Both the position numbers and the translations under genes were made by a program. From NCBI RefSeq assembly GCF_014395785.1, contig NZ_CP060713.1, positions 1,640,501-1,704,500 of the forward strand: a stretch of 64,000 nt of DNA. Reading direction: 5' to 3'. Position 1 is the first letter of the stretch; every line of letters starts with the position of its first letter. The stretch comes from Nocardioides mesophilus. GTDB lineage: Bacteria > Actinomycetota > Actinomycetes > Propionibacteriales > Nocardioidaceae. The notes below the pieces were generated by a model, which was not told where the DNA came from, did not search any database, and saw nothing but the letters and a program-made list of their open reading frames with translations. Of the stretch, positions 3,346 through 42,249 are shown piece by piece.

Positions 3346-5418
3346 ATGGAGACCGGACCGACCCCGCACCCAGGCGGCCTCGCGGCCGCCGTACCGCCGC
3401 CGCTGCTGCAGATCCGCGGCCTGCGCACCGACATCCGGCTGAAGCGCTCCACCGTCCACGCCGTCGACGGCGTCGACCTCACGGTGCGCCAGGGCGAGAC
3501 CCTCGGCGTCGTCGGCGAGTCCGGGTGCGGCAAGACGATGCTCGCGCTGTCGATCATGCAGCTGCTGCCGCCCGGCGGGGACGTCGTCGACGGGGAGGTG
3601 GTGCTCGACGGGGTGGACCTGGTCGGCCTCGACGAGACCGAGATGAAGCACGTGCGCGGCGACGACGTCGCGATGATCTTCCAGGACCCGCTGACCTCGC
3701 TGAACCCGACCGTCCCTGTGGGCAAGCAGATCGCGGAGTCCGTGGTGCTGCACCGGCGGATCGGCGCGGCGGCCGCCCGGGCCCGCGCCGTGGAGGTGCT
3801 CGACCTCGTCGGGATCGCGCGTGCGCGGGACCGGGTCGACGACTACCCGCACCAGTTCTCCGGCGGGATGCGCCAGCGGGTGATGATCGCGATCGCGCTC
3901 GCCTGCGACCCCAAGCTGCTGATCGCCGACGAGCCGACGACCGCCCTCGACGTCACCATCCAGGCACAGATCCTCGAGCTGATCGACCGGCTGAAGGCCG
4001 AGCTCGGCATGGCGGTGATCCTGGTGACCCACGACCTCGGCGTCATCGCCGGGCGGGCGGACCGGGTGGCGGTGATGTACGCCGGCCGCGTGGTCGAGTC
4101 GGCCCCGTCCGATCTGCTCTTCCGCGAGCCGCGGCACCGCTACACCGAGGCGCTCTTCAGCGCGCTGCCGGAGCGTGCGGCGGAGAGCCGGCAGCCGCTC
4201 TATGCCATCCCCGGGCTGCCGCCGGACCTCACCCAGCCGCCGCCCGCCTGCCGGTTCGCGCCGCGGTGCCGCTTCGCCGAGGACGACTGCCGCAGCGAGG
4301 ACCCCGCCCTGATCCTCCAGCCGGACGGCCGCGAGGTCGCGTGCTTCCACCAAGCGTCCGCCGGTCACCGGCTCGAGGTGCACGAGCGGCTGCCCGAGCC
4401 GGAGGTGGCACCCCGGGAGCGCTCGGTCCTGCTCTCGGTGGAGCACCTGGTCAAGGACTTTCCGCTCGGACACTCGCTGTTCGGCCGCAAGCAGGGCACC
4501 GTCTCGGCGGTCGCGGACGTGAGCTTCGAGGTTCGCACGGGCGAGACGCTCGGCCTGGTGGGTGAGTCCGGGTGCGGCAAGACCACCACCGGACGCCTGG
4601 TCGTGGGGCTCGACGACCCCACCTCTGGCACGGTCCGGGTGGACGGGAAGGACCTGACCGCGCTCCCCCGGCGCGAGCGGCGGGTGATGCGCCGCGAGGT
4701 GCAGTTCATGTTCCAGGACCCGTACTCGTCCCTGGACCCGCGGATGCGGGTGGGGCCGATCCTGCGGGAGCCGCTGCAGATCCACCGACTCGGCGACCGC
4801 GCCGAGCAACGCCGCCAGGTCTCCGAGCTCCTCGACCTGGTCGGACTGCCCGAGTCGGCCGTCGACCGCTACCCGCACGAGTTCTCCGGCGGCCAACGGC
4901 AGCGGATCGGGCTGGCCCGCGCGCTGGCCCTGCACCCGCGGCTGGTGGTGGCCGACGAGCCGGTCTCCGCGCTCGACGTCTCGATCCAGGCACAGGTGCT
5001 GAACACGATGCGCGAGCTGCAGAACCGGCTGGACCTGACCTACGTGGTGATCTCCCACGACCTGTCGGTGATCCGCTACCTCGCGGACCGGATCGGCGTG
5101 ATGTACCTGGGCAAGCTGGTCGAGGAGGGGCCGGCGGCCGAGGTGTACCACCATCCGCTGCACCCCTACACCCACGGTCTCATCGAGACGATCCCGGTCG
5201 CCGACCCCGAACGGGAACGGGTCAAGGAGAAGGCCCCGCTCGGCGGCGAGCTGCCCAGCGCCGCCGCTCCGCCGTCCGGCTGCCGGTTCCGGACCCGGTG
5301 CCCGCTCGCCCAGGAGATCTGCGCCCAGGAGGAGCCACCGCTGGCCCCGCTGCGACCCGGCGGCCACCGGGTCGCGTGCCACTTCCCGCTGGAGCCCGCA
5401 GCGCCGACGGCCGTCTGA
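3346..5418 (+). CDS. Fused double ABC ATPase (DppD-DppF type)
   Basis: A 690-residue protein with two complete ATPase halves that energise the importer. Half 1 has Walker A GESGCGKT at residues 57-64, signature FSGGMRQR and Walker [13 protein letters not shown]. Half 2 repeats these with [16 protein letters not shown] and [12 protein letters not shown]. Each half ends in the Cys-containing oligopeptide-transporter tail (CRFAPRC; CRFRTRC). In most bacteria these are two genes; the fusion is common in actinobacteria. The ATG at 3346 has AGGTGA 5 nt upstream. A GTG at 3337 overlapping the previous stop is an alternative that adds three residues. Confidence 0.92.
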
Positions 5419-10920: not shown

Positions 10921-12624
10921 ATGCCTGATCCGACCGACCGGCCGTGGGCAGCGAGCTACGCCCCCGGCGTACCGCTCGACATAGAGGTGCCCGCGGGGTC
11001 GCTGGTGGACCTCCTCGACGAGGCCGTGCAGCGGTTCGGCCCGCGTCCCGCGTTGGACTTCTTCGGCGCCACGACGACGTACGAGGAGCTCGGCGAGCAG
11101 GTGGCCCGGGCCGCCGGGGCGCTGCGGCAGCTCGGCGTCCAACGGGGTGACCGGGTCGCGCTGATCCTGCCCAACTGCCCCCAGCACGTGGTGGCGTTCT
11201 ACGCCGCGCTGCGGCTCGGGGCGATCGTGGTGGAGCACAACCCGCTCTACACCGCCGACGAGCTCCGCTACCAGCTGGCCGACCACCGCCCCGACGTGAT
11301 CGTCGCCTGGGACAAGGTGGCGCCGCTCGCCCGGCAGGTGGCGGGTCGGACCGAGGCGACGGTGCTCGCCGTCGGGCTGCCGAGCGCGCTGCCCCGCGCG
11401 CAGCGCTGGGCGTTGCGGCTGCCGCTGCCCCGCGTCCGCAAGGTCCGGGCCGCCATGACCGCGCCGGCCCCCGGCATCGAGTCGTGGGACCGGCTGGTCG
11501 CGCAAAGCGCACCGCTGCCGGCGGACCACCCCAAGCCCGTCGCGGAGGACGTCGCGGTGCTGCAGTACACCGGCGGCACCACCGGCCGGCCCAAGGCGGC
11601 GATCCTCACGCACCGCAACCTGCGGGCCAACGCCGCGCAGGGCCGGGCCTGGCTGCCCGGCTTCCGCGACGGCGAGGAGGTCATCTATGCCGTGCTGCCC
11701 CTGTTCCACGCCTACGGACTGACCCTGTGCCTGACGTTCGCGCTCAGCACCGGCGCCACCCTGGTGCTGTTCCCGCGCTTCGACGTGGACATGGTGCTGG
11801 ACGCCGTACGCCGGCGCGCGCCCACGTTCCTGCCGGCGGTGCCGCCCATCTACGAGCGGCTCGCCACCGCGGCCCGGAAGCGCGGCGTCGACCTCACCTC
11901 GGTCCGCTTCGCGATCTCCGGGGCGATGTCGCTGCCGGCGAGCACCGCGCAGCTGTGGGAGTCGGTCAGCGGCGGCCTGCTCGTCGAGGGCTACGGGATG
12001 ACCGAGTCCTCACCGGTCGCACTCGGCAACCCGGTCTCGGAGAACCGCCGGATCGGCACCGTCGGGGTGCCGTTCCCCTCCACCGAGGTGTTGGTCGTGG
12101 ACCGCGACGACCACAGCCGGGCGGTGGCGCCCGGCGAGCGCGGCGAGCTGCTGATCCGCGGCCCGCAGGTGTTCGCCGGCTACTGGGAGCGGCCCGCGGA
12201 GACCGCGGACGTGGTGCTGCCGGGTGGCTGGATCCGCACCGGCGACGTGGTGGTGATGGACGAGGACGGCTTCTTCACCGTGGTCGACCGGATCAAGGAG
12301 CTGATCATCACCGGCGGGTTCAACGTCTACCCGACCGAGGTCGAGGAGGCGCTGCGGCGGGTGCCGGGGATCGCCGACGCCGCGGTGGTCGGGCTGCCCT
12401 CCGACCAGGGCGGCGAGGACGTCGAGGCCGCAGTGGTGCTCGAGCCGGGCGCCGACTTCGACGAGGCCGCGGTGCGGGCCGCGTGCAAGGAGCGGCTGGC
12501 GGCCTACAAGGTGCCGCGGCGGATCGTCGTCGTCGAGGAGCTGCCGCGCTCGGTCATCGGCAAGGTGCTGCGCCGGCAGGTGCGCGACCAGCTGCAACAG
12601 CAGCAGGCCACCGGCACCGCCTGA
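10921..12624 (+). CDS. Long-chain fatty-acid--CoA ligase
   Basis: A 567-residue AMP-forming acyl-CoA synthetase that activates fatty acids for beta-oxidation or lipid synthesis. The AMP-binding P-loop is YTGGTTGRPKAA, the adenine motif is GYGMTESSP, and the hinge is the GDVVVMDEDGF / DRIKELIITGGFNVYP block. The catalytic Lys is in the C-terminal SVIGKVLRR. Full length for FadD proteins. The ATG has AGGAGG 5 nt upstream, in contrast to the leaderless neighbours. A tandem 32-bp repeat array begins 14 bp after its stop. Confidence 0.93.
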   Translation: MPDPTDRPWAASYAPGVPLDIEVPAGSLVDLLDEAVQRFGPRPALDFFGATTTYEELGEQVARAAGALRQLGVQRGDRVALILPNCPQHVVAFYAALRLGAIVVEHNPLYTADELRYQLADHRPDVIVAWDKVAPLARQVAGRTEATVLAVGLPSALPRAQRWALRLPLPRVRKVRAAMTAPAPGIESWDRLVAQSAPLPADHPKPVAEDVAVLQYTGGTTGRPKAAILTHRNLRANAAQGRAWLPGFRDGEEVIYAVLPLFHAYGLTLCLTFALSTGATLVLFPRFDVDMVLDAVRRRAPTFLPAVPPIYERLATAARKRGVDLTSVRFAISGAMSLPASTAQLWESVSGGLLVEGYGMTESSPVALGNPVSENRRIGTVGVPFPSTEVLVVDRDDHSRAVAPGERGELLIRGPQVFAGYWERPAETADVVLPGGWIRTGDVVVMDEDGFFTVVDRIKELIITGGFNVYPTEVEEALRRVPGIADAAVVGLPSDQGGEDVEAAVVLEPGADFDEAAVRAACKERLAAYKVPRRIVVVEELPRSVIGKVLRRQVRDQLQQQQATGTA

Positions 12625-12637
12625 CCCGCCTGACCCG

Positions 12638-12724
12638 CCGAGTCGGCGCATCTGCAGCGCTGGACCCTGCCGAGTCGGCGCATCTGCAGCGCCGAACCCT
12701 GCCGAGTCGGCGCATCTGCAGCGC
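12638..12724 (+). repeat. 32-bp tandem repeat array A (3 copies)
   Basis: Units start at 12638, 12670 and 12702, period 32. The core is CCGAGTCGGCGCATCTGCAG, made of an odd palindrome (CCGA-G-TCGG) beside a CTGCAG-centred one. The array lies between convergent genes. The same unit recurs at 39149-39300 and, inverted, at 40334-40555. Confidence 0.93.
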
Positions 12725-38218: not shown

Positions 38219-39145
38219 GTGCGCGGACTCGTCGCGGTCGTGCTGCTGGTGGTCGGCAGCCTGATGGTCCCGGTGGCCACCGCCGGCTGGTGGCTGCGGG
38301 ACACGGTCGTGCCCACGGACAGCTACGTCGAGACGGTCGCGCCGCTGGCCACCGACCCCGCGGTCCTGGGCGCGGTCGAGGACCGGCTGGTCGCCGAGGT
38401 CATGGCGTCGATCCGGGACGCAGGTTTGCTCGACCAGGTCGCCGCCGCGCTCGAGCGGGGCGGCCTGTCCCCGCTGCTCGCCGAGGAGCTGCAGGGGCAG
38501 GCCGGCGCGCTGGAGGCGAAGATCGAGCGGCTGGTCACCGGGGCGGTCCGGACTGTGGTGCGGAGTCCCGCCTTCGCCGAGGCCTGGCGCACCTCGAACG
38601 AGGTCGCCCACGACGAGCTCGTCGCGATCCTGTCCGGCGACTCCGCGGCGGTCGAGCGGGGTCCCGGCGCCCGCGTGGACGTGCGGCTCGCCGCGCTGTC
38701 CACGACGCTGCGCAAGGAGCTGGTCGCGGCAGGGGTGCCGTTCGCGGAGACGCTGCCGAAGGTGCAGGCGACCTACACGATCGGCACCGTCGAGGACCTG
38801 CAGCGCGCGCAGGTCGCGTACGCCGCGCTGGACCGGTGGGGCCGGTTGCTCCCCGTGCTCGCCGGGGCGTTGCTGCTGCTCGGACTGCTGGTGGCGCGGC
38901 GCCGCCGACGGGCGCTGATCGGGTCGGCGCTGCTCTCGCTGCTCGGGCTTGGCCTGCTTGCGGTCGCGATCGTGCTGGGCCGTTCGGCCTACCTCGCGTC
39001 GCTGCCGGTGGAGGTGCCGTCCGCGGCCGGCCGGGCGTACTTCGACGTGCTCACCGCCGACCTCTGGCGCGACCTCGGGTGGGTCGCCGGCGCGGCCGGG
39101 CTGCTGCTGGTGCTCGCGCTCGTCGTACGCCGTCCGTCCCGCTGA
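38219..39145 (+). CDS. Membrane protein with extracytoplasmic central domain
   Basis: A 308-residue protein. The N-terminal membrane segment VAVVLLVVGSLMVPVATAGW (about 4-23) is followed by a 180-residue helical domain beginning VPTDSYVETVAPLATDPAV. Three C-terminal membrane segments then follow (about 205-225, 235-255 and 285-303). This layout recurs in actinobacterial hypothetical proteins; function unknown. GTG start 4 bp after the S10 peptidase stop. Ribosome re-initiation is likely because there is no good ribosome binding site. Confidence 0.8.
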   Translation: MRGLVAVVLLVVGSLMVPVATAGWWLRDTVVPTDSYVETVAPLATDPAVLGAVEDRLVAEVMASIRDAGLLDQVAAALERGGLSPLLAEELQGQAGALEAKIERLVTGAVRTVVRSPAFAEAWRTSNEVAHDELVAILSGDSAAVERGPGARVDVRLAALSTTLRKELVAAGVPFAETLPKVQATYTIGTVEDLQRAQVAYAALDRWGRLLPVLAGALLLLGLLVARRRRRALIGSALLSLLGLGLLAVAIVLGRSAYLASLPVEVPSAAGRAYFDVLTADLWRDLGWVAGAAGLLLVLALVVRRPSR

Positions 39146-39148
39146 CCG

Positions 39149-39300
39149 CCGAGTCGGCGCAACTGCAGCCCTCAACCCCGCCGAGTCGGCGCATCTGCAG
39201 CCCTCCCACCCGCCGAGTCGGCGCATCTGCAGCCCTCAACCCCGCCGAGTCGGCGCATCTGCAGCCCTCCCCCGCCGAGTCGGCGCATCTGCAGCGCTCC
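39149..39300 (+). repeat. 32-bp tandem repeat array B (5 copies)
   Basis: Units begin at 39149, 39181, 39213, 39245 and 39275 (period 32, last step 30). Same orientation and core as array A. The first unit has GCAACTGCAG where the others have GCATCTGCAG. It starts 3 bp after the preceding stop and ends about 30 bp before the AbiEi/DUF559-like gene. Confidence 0.95.
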
Positions 39301-39331
39301 TGCCGCGTCCTGGGGATAACCGACTGCGGGT

Positions 39332-40333
39332 ATGTCGGGAATCGACGACGGTTCTCCGATGGCCCAACCGTCCTTGTTCACCGATGGCCCGCTCCTCGGG
39401 GCCGACTTCCCGCTCCCCCTGGACCGCCCGTTCACGACCCGACAAGCAGCCGACCTCGGTGTCAGCCGCTCGGTGCTCTCGCGCCTCCATCGCACGGGCT
39501 ACGTGCGGCGACTGCTCAAGGGTGTGTTCGTCGCCGCCCAGGTGCCGGACACCCTGACGCTCCGCGTGCAGGCGCTGCAGCTCGTCGTTCCGGCGGGCAC
39601 GGTGATCGTCGACTGGACCGCGGTGTGGCTGTACACCGGCTGCCTGCCGTTCGGCCACCACCTGGAGGTGCCGCCGGTCTCGGTCTTCCGCCTCCCCGGT
39701 CGAGGCCGGCTCCGGAACGGTCTGTGCGTCAGCGGCGAGCGCGACCTGCGGCCCGGGGACGTGACCATGGTGGACGACTTGACGGTGACGACACCCTTGC
39801 GCACAGCCTGGGATGTCGGCCGGCTCTCGCACCGTGACCTGGCGATGGCCGGTCTCGACTGCCTGCTCCGGACCGCCTACTTCGGCAAGGACGAGCTCAC
39901 GGGGGGCGTCGAACGCTTTGGCAAGCGGCGCGGCGTCGTACAGCTCCGCGAGCTTGCGCCCAAGGCCGACGGCAGGGCCGAGTCGACCGGCGAGTCGGTG
40001 CTGCGACTGCGGTGGCTGGACATGTCGTCGCTGCCACCGCCGCGACCGCAGGTGCCGATCCTCGACGACAGCGGTCGCGAGCTCTACCGGCTGGACCTCG
40101 GTGTCGAGGAGATCCGGTTCGCGGCGGAGTACGACGGGGAGGAGTTCCACACCAGCGACGCCGACCGAGCACACGACCGCGCCCGACGTGAGTGGATCGA
40201 GCAACACCGCGGCTGGATCATCGAGCCGGTGCGGCGGGAGAACGTGTTCGGGCTGCACCGGGACGTCGAGAGCATCCTGTCCGAAGGGATCGCCCGGGCC
40301 CGTCGCAAACTCGGGTCGTCCGGACGAGGTTGA
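39332..40333 (+). CDS. AbiEi-like winged helix plus DUF559/Vsr-like nuclease-fold protein
   Basis: A 333-residue protein. Residues about 33-67 (TTRQAADLGVSRSVLSRLHR, then KGVFVA) match the winged-helix N-terminus of AbiEi antitoxins. The C-terminus (about 215-300) resembles DUF559/Vsr-type PD-(D/E)XK domains: a helical Glu (217 or 221), Asp255 in YRLDLG, Glu266-x-Asp268 in AAEYDGEEFH, then a helix and strand GWIIEPVRR. Conserved acids suggest it may cut DNA. No AbiEii toxin is adjacent. It is bracketed by oppositely oriented 32-bp repeat arrays. ATG 39332 is chosen; ATG 39359 is possible. Confidence 0.78.
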   Translation: MSGIDDGSPMAQPSLFTDGPLLGADFPLPLDRPFTTRQAADLGVSRSVLSRLHRTGYVRRLLKGVFVAAQVPDTLTLRVQALQLVVPAGTVIVDWTAVWLYTGCLPFGHHLEVPPVSVFRLPGRGRLRNGLCVSGERDLRPGDVTMVDDLTVTTPLRTAWDVGRLSHRDLAMAGLDCLLRTAYFGKDELTGGVERFGKRRGVVQLRELAPKADGRAESTGESVLRLRWLDMSSLPPPRPQVPILDDSGRELYRLDLGVEEIRFAAEYDGEEFHTSDADRAHDRARREWIEQHRGWIIEPVRRENVFGLHRDVESILSEGIARARRKLGSSGRG

Positions 40334-40555
40334 GCGCTGCAGACGCGCCGACTCGACGGGGTCCAGCGCTGCAGACGCGCCGACTCGACGGGGTCCAGCG
40401 CTGCAGACGCGCCGACTCGGCAGGGTTCAGCGCTGCAGACGCGCCGACTCGACAGGGTCCAGCGCTGCAGACGCGCCGACTCGACAGGGTCCAGCGCTGC
40501 AGATGCGCCGACTCGGCGGGGTCCAGCGCTGCAGACGCGCCGACTCGGCGGGTAG
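40334..40555 (-). repeat. 32-bp tandem repeat array C (7 copies, inverted)
   Basis: Units begin at 40334, 40366, 40398, 40430, 40462, 40494 and 40526 at exact 32-bp spacing, reading GCGCTGCAGACGCGCCGACT. This is the reverse complement of the array A/B core with one C/T change, and one unit keeps the T. The first unit touches the stop codon of the AbiEi/DUF559-like gene, and the array fills the convergent gap up to paaN. Confidence 0.95.
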
Positions 40556-40563
40556 GGCGGGGG

Positions 40564-42249
40564 TCAGAGGTGGCGGCGGGACTGGACCACGCGGAAGCGG
40601 CTCGCGACGTAGGCGGTGTCGGTGTAGGAGGCGGTCGCGGCCGGGTTCGCGCCGGTGCCGTGGTAGTCGCTGAACGCCGCGGACTGGTTCACGAAGACCC
40701 CACCGGTGAGGTTCTCCGAGAGCGCCACCCCGACGTCCAGCGCGGCCTCGCGCATCGCCTCGACGACCCGCTCCGAGGTGGAGTACACCGACGCCGTCAT
40801 CGCGCCGTGCTCCTTGACGGTCCGCCGGAACACTGCGATCGACTCCGCGGTGTCGGCGGTCTCGATCAGGTAGGCCACCGGGCCGAAGCACTCCTGCTCG
40901 TAGATGTCCCGGTCGGCCACGGTCAGCCCGATGATCGTCGGCGTGCGCACCACCGCGTCGTCGTACGCCGGATGGCGCACCGCGCGCGACCCGACGAGGA
41001 CCCGGCCCGTCGTCCCGGACTCCTCGAGCCGGGAGAGCACCCCCTCGTTCACGACGCCGCCGAGCAGCTCGACGGCGCGGGCGTCGTCGCCGAGGAGCTT
41101 GCCGAGCGCGGCCTCGATGCCGGCGGCCACCTCCTCGACGGACTTGCGTCCCTCGTCGGTCTCGATGCCGCCGGCCGGCAGGAAGACGTTCTGCGGGGCG
41201 GTGCACATCTGGCCGGTGTAGAGGGAGAAGGAGAAGGCGAGGTTCGTGCAGAGGCCGCGGAAGCTGTCGGTGGAGTCCAGCACGACGGCGTTCACGCCGG
41301 CCTTCTCCGCGAACACGATGGCCTGGCGGGCGTGCTGCTCCAGCCAGTCACCGAAGGCGTTGCCGCCGGTGAAGTCGATCAGCTTCACCTCGGGCCGCAC
41401 CGCCAGCACCGCCGCCAGCCCGTCGGCCGGGTCCTCGGCGGCCAGCGTGACCAGGTTCGGGTCGAAGCCGGCCTCCAGGAGCACCTCGCGGCACACCTGC
41501 ACGGTGATCGCCAGGGGCAGCACGGCGCCCGGGTGCGGCTTGACGACGACGGCGTTGCCGCAGGCCAGCGAGGCGAACAGGCCGGGCCAGGAGTTCCAGG
41601 TCGGGAAGGTGTTGCAGCCGACCACCAGCGCGACGCCGCGCGGCACGACGGTGAAGGTCTTCTCCATGCGCAGCGGCTCGCCCTTGCCGGGCTTCTCCCA
41701 CACCACGGTGTGCGGGGTCCGGGTCATCTCGTCCCAGGCGTAGGCGACCGCCTCGAGCGCCCGGTCCAGGGCGTGGGCGCCGCCGGCCTGGAAGGCCATC
41801 ACGAACGCCTGGCCGGAGGTGTGCTGGACCGCGTTGGCGAGCTCGAAGACCCGCTGGTGCAGCCGGGTGAGGATCTCCAGGCAGACCCCGACGCGGGCGT
41901 CCGGCCCGGCGTCGCGGAACGCCTTCATGCCGTGGGCGGCCGCCGCCAGCAGCGGGTCGACGCCGTCCGGGGCGACCCGCGGGTAGGCCACGTCGAGCGG
42001 GAAGCCGAACGGCGACTTCTCGGTCGTCACCGTGCCCTCGGCGCCGGGGGTGTCGAGGGGGAACGTGGTGCCGGCGTACTCCTCGAACGCGGCCTTGCCC
42101 TCCGCGGCGGCGCCCTCGCCGTAGATCCGCGGGGACGGCGACTCCTCGAAGGCGGAGAAGTACTCGCGGGTGCGGGTCGCCTCCACGGCGCGGCGCAGCG
42201 TCTCCTCGTGCGCGGCGAACAGGGCGGCGGCGGAAGGGGCGTCGGTCAT
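40564..42249 (-). CDS. paaN: Phenylacetic acid degradation protein PaaN (aldehyde dehydrogenase)
   Basis: A 561-residue aldehyde-dehydrogenase-superfamily protein of the stand-alone PaaN type. Its length and N-terminus (TDAPSAAALFAAHEETLRRA) fit that group. NAD-fold and catalytic parts: VVGCNTFPTWNSWPGLF, the Cys in YTGQMCTAPQN, and the C-terminal ECFGPVAYLIE. In aromatic catabolism PaaN-type enzymes oxidise the ring-opened semialdehyde. No other paa ring-oxidation genes are in the window, though a PaaI-like thioesterase lies at 56525. A TGTGACAG/CTGTCACA repeat precedes it. Confidence 0.88.
   Translation of the reverse strand: MTDAPSAAALFAAHEETLRRAVEATRTREYFSAFEESPSPRIYGEGAAAEGKAAFEEYAGTTFPLDTPGAEGTVTTEKSPFGFPLDVAYPRVAPDGVDPLLAAAAHGMKAFRDAGPDARVGVCLEILTRLHQRVFELANAVQHTSGQAFVMAFQAGGAHALDRALEAVAYAWDEMTRTPHTVVWEKPGKGEPLRMEKTFTVVPRGVALVVGCNTFPTWNSWPGLFASLACGNAVVVKPHPGAVLPLAITVQVCREVLLEAGFDPNLVTLAAEDPADGLAAVLAVRPEVKLIDFTGGNAFGDWLEQHARQAIVFAEKAGVNAVVLDSTDSFRGLCTNLAFSFSLYTGQMCTAPQNVFLPAGGIETDEGRKSVEEVAAGIEAALGKLLGDDARAVELLGGVVNEGVLSRLEESGTTGRVLVGSRAVRHPAYDDAVVRTPTIIGLTVADRDIYEQECFGPVAYLIETADTAESIAVFRRTVKEHGAMTASVYSTSERVVEAMREAALDVGVALSENLTGGVFVNQSAAFSDYHGTGANPAATASYTDTAYVASRFRVVQSRRHL

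Follow-up and report, generated by a model that had tools for sequence, protein, structure and literature searches.

How does one short DNA repeat come to stand in two mutually inverted arrays around a single gene, and is the product of that gene concerned with the repeat? The question is raised by a locus in a 64,000-nucleotide stretch of the Nocardioides mesophilus chromosome, hereafter called the window. The reading preferred here, to which a probability of about 0.72 is given, is that the repeats form a REP-like system operated by a predicted sequence-specific nuclease of unrelated type, the flanking unit being its recognition site. As far as sequence comparison can carry it, this reading is supported by the flanking of the gene throughout its family, the copy number of the cognate unit, the covariation of protein and unit, array-free sites, the adjacency of arrays to stop codons and the joint replacement of gene and units. 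DNA binding, cleavage and the mechanism of copying, which would be break repair or gene conversion and not a classical transposase reaction, are inferred.

The locus and its repeat unit

The features of the locus are collected in Table 1. The initial annotation had described five forward units before the gene, seven inverted units after its stop and further copies 26 kb away without such a gene, and all of these were found at the positions it gave. Matches to the forward units, taken as 20-mers, start at 39149, 39181, 39213, 39245 and 39275, and the inverted unit starts run from 40337 to 40529. The forward array opens a few nucleotides past the stop of the upstream host ORF (38219-39145) and leaves a gap of about 30-37 bp to the start codon of the nuclease gene (ATG, 39332). 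On the other side, the inverted array begins 4 nt past the stop of that gene and extends close to the stop of an aldehyde dehydrogenase ORF in convergent orientation (40564-42249).

Table 1. Positions of the arrays, the gene and its domains in the window
Feature	Position	Strand	Basis
Gene-less array, 3 units	12638..12721	+	Two convergent ORFs stop on either side of it, at 12624 and 12777
Forward array, 5 units, spacing 32/32/32/30	39146..39301	+	Repeat-unit matching in the window
Nuclease gene (predicted), 333 aa	39332..40333	+	ORF, Pfam, structure model, alignment, dN/dS
Codons 46-54, second helix of the modelled helix-turn-helix	39467..39493	+	Residues covary with the right half of the unit
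Codons 118-129, middle-domain loop	39683..39718	+	Covariation of residue 125 with unit positions 5-6
Codons 216-333, Vsr/EDxHD-like nuclease domain (predicted)	39977..40330	+	Structure model, Foldseek, conserved residues
Inverted array, 7 units, spacing 32	40337..40556	-	Repeat-unit matching in the window

When up to three mismatches are allowed, 16 matches to CCGAGTCGGCGCATCTGCAG occur in the window, whereas 100 shuffles gave 0.01 on average. The 16th of these matches lies at 4774, has two mismatches, looks coding-like by eye and was left out of the arrays. Over the whole genome the 11-base core GCGCCGACTCG occurs 87 + 90 = 177 times, as compared with 7 + 8 = 15 for the reversed control. The unit had earlier been described as two adjacent palindromes; it is better regarded as a bipartite site with a conserved left half and a right half that varies among relatives. 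Successive copies in the downstream array repeat the whole 32-bp unit at about 88-89% identity. By definition, a CRISPR array consists of repeats with unique spacers between them. Such an array was ruled out here, since whole units repeat and the two arrays are mutually inverted (cas genes were outside the search).

Inverted arrays throughout the family

The relatives compared were the best 80 of 428 confirmed loci from one scan of named genomes, nearly all from Nocardioides and its kin. Three of them lacked enough flanking sequence for the flank test. In the other 77 of these best 80, matching inverted arrays were found on both flanks at a score of at least 40 in 70 loci, against 1 of 374 other genes of the same loci, so that the family members are indeed repeatedly flanked by arrays, as the initial annotation had asked to be checked. 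At the laxest threshold printed, the figures were 73 of 77 and 16 of 374. A first look at other fetches had given 27 of 32 with flanking inverted arrays at score 40, the far-flank control being at most 30. The seven loci that failed were L063, L066, L068, L089, L091, L108 and L119. Two of these (L068 and L091) passed once the last 60 nt of the gene were admitted; L089 and L108 have an array on one side only, and the downstream array of L063 is displaced.

The tandem arrangement is also widespread. Among 78 loci examined, a period of 21, 22, 31, 32 or 42 bp was found upstream in 60 of the 71 with a detectable period and downstream in 60 of 63 such flanks; these periods correspond to about 2, 3 or 4 turns of DNA. 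The units themselves differ from relative to relative, with a shared left half, YCGASNCGGCG, and a variable right half. Similarity between units (score at least 40) follows protein identity: it was seen in all 6 pairs whose proteins are at least 80% identical, in 10 of the 14 between 70 and 80% and in 56 of 2769 below 60%.

One locus, L100, is a near-copy of L101. It was kept for the flank test and for the period, outer-gene and home counts, and was dropped from the 82-row protein alignment and from the protein-unit, covariation, stop-distance and background counts. Both lie in Nocardioides sp. CFH 31398, on contig regions that are nearly identical. At the upstream array the alignment of these regions is offset by ~96 bp, or three 32-bp periods; the pair may be an assembly duplicate.

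Copy number across genomes

Three units, those of the window, L035 and L055, were searched in 149 genomes and were abundant in five. The window unit (19-mer, at most one mismatch) is present in 135 copies in genome G000, 129 in G113 and 77 in G005, in 1-3 copies in seven others and in none of the remaining 139 of the 149. A homologue at E <= 1e-30 is encoded by 101 of the same 149 genomes; a homologue alone, therefore, does not bring the window unit. The L035 unit has 39 copies in its owner G001 and one in G166, and the L055 unit 91 copies in its owner G034 and one in G081, with none in the other 147 genomes in either case. All five genomes with an abundant unit have a gene flanked by that unit or, in G005, by its variant. 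The gene of G113, L060, encodes a protein 47% identical to that of the window and is nevertheless flanked by the window unit.

Repeats equally abundant in genomes without the gene would have spoken against a connection between the two. This was not the case for the three units searched. The expected tracking of copy number with the cognate gene holds for G000, G113, G001 and G034 and is less neat for G005, whose copies are of a one-mismatch form and whose units beside the gene L034 differ from the search word by 2-3 letters. A search of the 0.85 Mb surrounding 67 loci gave 36 cognate unit-like matches as against about 24 non-cognate and 9 reversed ones, and by eye a part of the 36 looks like coding sequence. 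Dispersal is strong in some genomes only and is not universal.

Position of the arrays and array-free sites

The arrays tend to begin near host stop codons, mostly between convergent genes. The outer genes are convergent at 49 of 73 loci, compared with 129 of 603 background genes. Where a host gene ends nearby and a unit was found, the first unit lies 0-15 nt from the host stop codon on 88 of 107 sides, and on 11 of the 107 the stop codon is the YGA of the unit itself. Gene-less arrays occur at many sites in G000 and G113, and in the loci examined they often take the form of a forward array, a spacer and an inverted array. Of 47 dispersed arrays in 29 loci of these two genomes, 26 have a sense stop no more than 50 nt away and 6 fall inside a predicted gene; like the 107 sides above, these positions rest on a crude gene caller.

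The spacers of gene-less arrays were considered as remnants of the nuclease gene, and this was not upheld: for eight spacers only weak matches were found among those listed (best E 0.002). In L147, the 650-bp spacer of a gene-less array carries another ORF.

Two dispersed arrays of G113 were compared with their counterparts in 58 congeners each, 19 loci being fetched for each, and array-free junctions were found at both. At the first site, four of the eight relatives readable on both sides are array-free, with gaps of 1, 3, 8 and 17 bp between the stops; L165 holds, by eye, an array of another unit, and the remaining readable relatives have other sequence. At the second, one of five readable relatives is array-free, with a 17-bp gap, and the other four hold other elements or a longer insert. 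No target-site duplication was seen. In three relatives of G113 (L185, L189 and L195), other palindromic elements were noticed by eye at the same convergent junction.

The predicted protein

An AbiEi-type winged helix, a middle domain and a predicted Vsr/EDxHD-like nuclease domain make up the window protein. The initial annotation had read the same two outer parts from the sequence, and its assignment agrees with Pfam, in which AbiEi_4 scores over the cut-off and the MTES_1575 restriction endonuclease (REase) family under it, and with a compatible structure model. The AbiEi models of PADLOC are the best matches to the protein, and NCBIfam gave no match. A structure model built from 82 sequences has a mean pLDDT of 93.7. 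Through Foldseek, the AbiEi antitoxin 6y8q was matched at E 1.6e-5 with low TM-scores; the EDxHD homing enzyme I-Bth0305I (3r3p) was matched with a probability of 0.92 and a TMt of 0.67 but an E of 0.31, and Vsr (1vsr) with a probability of 0.80, a TMt of 0.49 and an E of about 0.3. The model is compatible with a Vsr/EDxHD-like nuclease, while cleavage as such is inferred.

In the 82 alignment rows, S218, E221, D255 and D282 are invariant, and E266, Y267, G269, H273 and R285 are kept in at least 90%. L042 and L045 were excluded from the first alignment, and L040 and two own-genome paralogues also from the next. The nuclease gene is under purifying selection in the eight pairs of relatives computed, with dN/dS of 0.06-0.21. 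Carriage by phages or plasmids was rejected: no phage match to the window protein was found, and the single plasmid match covers 34% of it.

Covariation of protein and unit

The proteins and their units covary, residues near 125 with the left half of the unit and the helix near 46 with the right half. Where residue 125 is glycine, unit positions 5-6 tend to be GT or GC (30/3/3/39 over 75 loci), and where residue 46 is arginine (R46), unit position 17 tends to be G (23/5/9/38). When the whole protein is scanned in windows of 9 residues, the left half of the unit goes best with a window centred on residue 123 and the right half with one centred on 49, within the helix 46-54; in a thinned set of 47 loci, these centres fall at 124 and 49. 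Among the 40 highest covariation cells, five pair the helix with the right half and ten the loop with the left half (0.7 expected for each), with none crosswise. Many other cells of the top 40 fall elsewhere in the protein, and the helix and loop blocks were drawn after the residue-125 result was known. The Mantel correlation for the whole protein is weak (0.16), and none of 300 permutations was as high. L080, whose unit was found out of register, was left out.

The Fisher values ignore kinship. When the tree is made without the protein region concerned, the two traits of the R46 pairing (arginine at 46, G at unit position 17) show 19 and 18 changes. Among independent pairs, 8.1 differ the same way, 1.2 the opposite way and 2.8 show no difference, which gives a median p of 0.039 (range 0.012-0.344) for a pairing picked from 25104 tests, in which it ranked 9. 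For residue 125, the tree-aware median p is 0.25, or 0.125 without the loop, with too few pairs. In winged helices, one particular helix reads DNA, and contacts between arginine and guanine are familiar. The helix 46-54 is inferred to be this recognition helix, and recognition of the unit by the protein is inferred from the covariation.

Replacement at chromosomal homes

Thirty loci share one chromosomal home, 19 with the gene in one orientation and 11 with it in the other, and none of 399 pairwise calls is inconsistent. Smaller homes comprise 9 loci (8 and 1), 7 and 4, along with five pairs. For the large home, the protein tree requires two changes of orientation and the tree of the flanking DNA six. 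Two pairs of loci are instructive. The flanks of L115 and L139 are 89-90% identical, whereas their proteins are 36% identical, their orientations opposite and their units different. Between L129 and L141, the flanks are 92-94% and the protein 58% identical, the inner units differ, and old-type units seem by eye to be kept at the outer edge. Together with the orientation counts, these contrasts lead to the view that gene and units appear to be exchanged together at fixed homes. Rapid flipping of the gene between its inverted arrays was rejected in favour of replacement, as orientation tracks the protein clade (two changes).

Proposed mechanism and alternative explanations

It is proposed that the middle domain would read the conserved left half of the unit and the recognition helix of the AbiEi-type winged helix its variable right half. 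Units placed ~2, 3 or 4 helical turns apart could bring several protein molecules onto one face of the DNA. The nuclease would then cut or nick at the units and so drive a REP-like copying process that places arrays in the gaps between the ends of host genes; at these target gaps the common stop context, TGACC, resembles the left half of the unit. The gene would remain at a few fixed homes, gene and units being replaced jointly by rival versions. Unit-specific cutting with repair-driven copying is, by inference, the most likely mechanism.

Other explanations have to be weighed against this one. A strict homing endonuclease, with homing confined to the gene cassette (its targets being alleles without it) and with arrays that are protected or decoy sites and do not form a mobile population, would suit the resemblance of the nuclease domain to the EDxHD enzyme I-Bth0305I and the swapping of alternative versions at one home between related species. 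It remains unlikely, given the gene-less arrays at many sites in G000 and G113 and the array-free counterparts at 2 of 2 sites tested. Slightly less credence is given to the possibility that the repeats serve the host, at transcription ends or in structuring the chromosome between convergent genes, with the protein maintaining or binding them. Arrays at 3' ends between convergent genes and purifying selection on the gene (eight pairs computed) would be expected from it; array-free sites in congeners, units that vary between species and replacement at the homes, however, argue against a fixed requirement, and the nuclease residues stay conserved.

That the arrays are operators, through which an AbiEi-like transcription regulator controls itself and a regulon, is quite improbable. 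In its favour are the AbiEi winged helix and the array that lies ~30 bp ahead of the ATG, but matching arrays lie downstream too, and the proximity to stop codons, at 88 of 107 gene-flanking sides (0-15 nt) and 26 of 47 dispersed arrays (within 50 nt), is at odds with it. There is hardly any room for the notion that the repeats are moved by a RAYT or other transposase encoded elsewhere, with the nuclease gene as a mere passenger. The distribution is REP-like (cf. the part of PMC3733652 available), yet Y1_Tnp was found in 0 of 5 genomes (other transposase classes were outside the search), copy number follows the unit of the nuclease gene, and protein and unit covary. The sequence-specific nuclease acting on its own flanking unit is thus the reading retained.

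Comparison with known systems

The system works like a REP/RAYT system but is not one, because the defining RAYT-type transposase (Y1_Tnp) was not found in any of five repeat-bearing genomes; a control search for it was positive in 5 of 14 known genomes, E. coli included, and the window gene itself is matched by other Pfam families. The initial idea of a RAYT/REPIN logic with an unrelated enzyme fits these results. Both systems have an enzyme gene flanked by its own repeats and dispersed copies, the latter strong in some genomes only. As described in the available portions of the respective papers, REP/RAYT repeats also lie beside the 3' ends of convergent genes and can supply the stop codon (PMC3733652), the enzyme gene is single-copy and long-kept (PMC8049555), and enzyme and repeat co-evolve (PMC8266576). 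The difference lies in the enzyme, which in the window is a winged helix with a predicted Vsr/EDxHD-like nuclease domain and not an HUH tyrosine transposase, and in the units, which in the window family form tandem arrays with near-helical spacing.

Replacement at fixed sites is a trait shared with EDxHD homing endonucleases. One of them, I-Bth0305I, is among the best solved matches to the nuclease domain and, according to the accessible part of PMC3943268, is likewise a multi-domain enzyme with a long target. It differs in that the window gene is chromosomal and not intron-borne, has many flanking units and is accompanied by gene-less arrays elsewhere. With the AbiEi antitoxin of the AbiE type IV toxin-antitoxin system, the protein shares the N-terminal winged helix and the domain following it. 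An AbiE system has, by definition, an AbiEii toxin gene next to AbiEi. The window protein, in contrast, has a fused, predicted nuclease domain and flanking arrays, and no AbiEii gene was detected by Pfam among the three neighbours tested (Peptidase_S10, one ORF without a Pfam match and Aldedh) at the window locus, the only one so tested. The C-terminal domain resembles, under the Pfam cut-off, the MTES_1575/DUF559 Vsr-type REases. For MTES_1575, fusions to HEPN, transglutaminase, helicase and wHTH domains are listed in PMC3710099, with no mention of repeat arrays in the part of that paper that was available. PMC10448857 was used as well.

No description of such a system was found in the open-licence PubMed Central literature (preprints excluded). 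If the reading is true, a nuclease of another fold with its cognate repeats means that REP-like populations can arise in another way. It is considered fairly probable that a RAYT-independent second route to such populations exists, in which Actinobacteria hold AbiEi-type winged-helix nucleases in many versions, each with a two-part site beside its gene, and in which the flanking repeats reveal, and may predict, specificity. Since copies of the apparent target stand beside each gene, the family would be a natural library of protein-DNA specificity pairs.

Distant homologues and paralogues

Distant homologues, fetched across the class with the paralogue L033, have similar inverted sequence on both sides in 20 of 27 loci, as compared with 0 of 27 far flanks. 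The count was made at score 40 after three short loci of 30 had been dropped, and 6 of the 27 belong to the window's own family. These distant relatives are flanked by long palindromes, and the palindromes beside 20 of the 27 usable loci suggest a wider reach.

Some of the paralogues and relatives have repeats of their own. L033/L203 (G000:C1, about 1469700-1471420) a distant paralogue, is 32% identical to the window protein and has a palindromic repeat of its own on its flanks, GCAACNAGCG...CGCTCGTTGC. A 15-base piece of this repeat occurs, with at most one mismatch, 41 times in the genome against 0 for the reversed sequence, and the copies lie in part between arrays of the window unit. A third paralogue, L032 (G000:C1:320563-321354), has three 52-bp repeats upstream and no matching inverted array downstream. 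In homologues from other families of the class (L208, L210, L216, L221, L225 and L226), the flanking palindromes contain GATCATGG or a near form of it, and the palindromes with GATCATGG are possibly one large repeat family.
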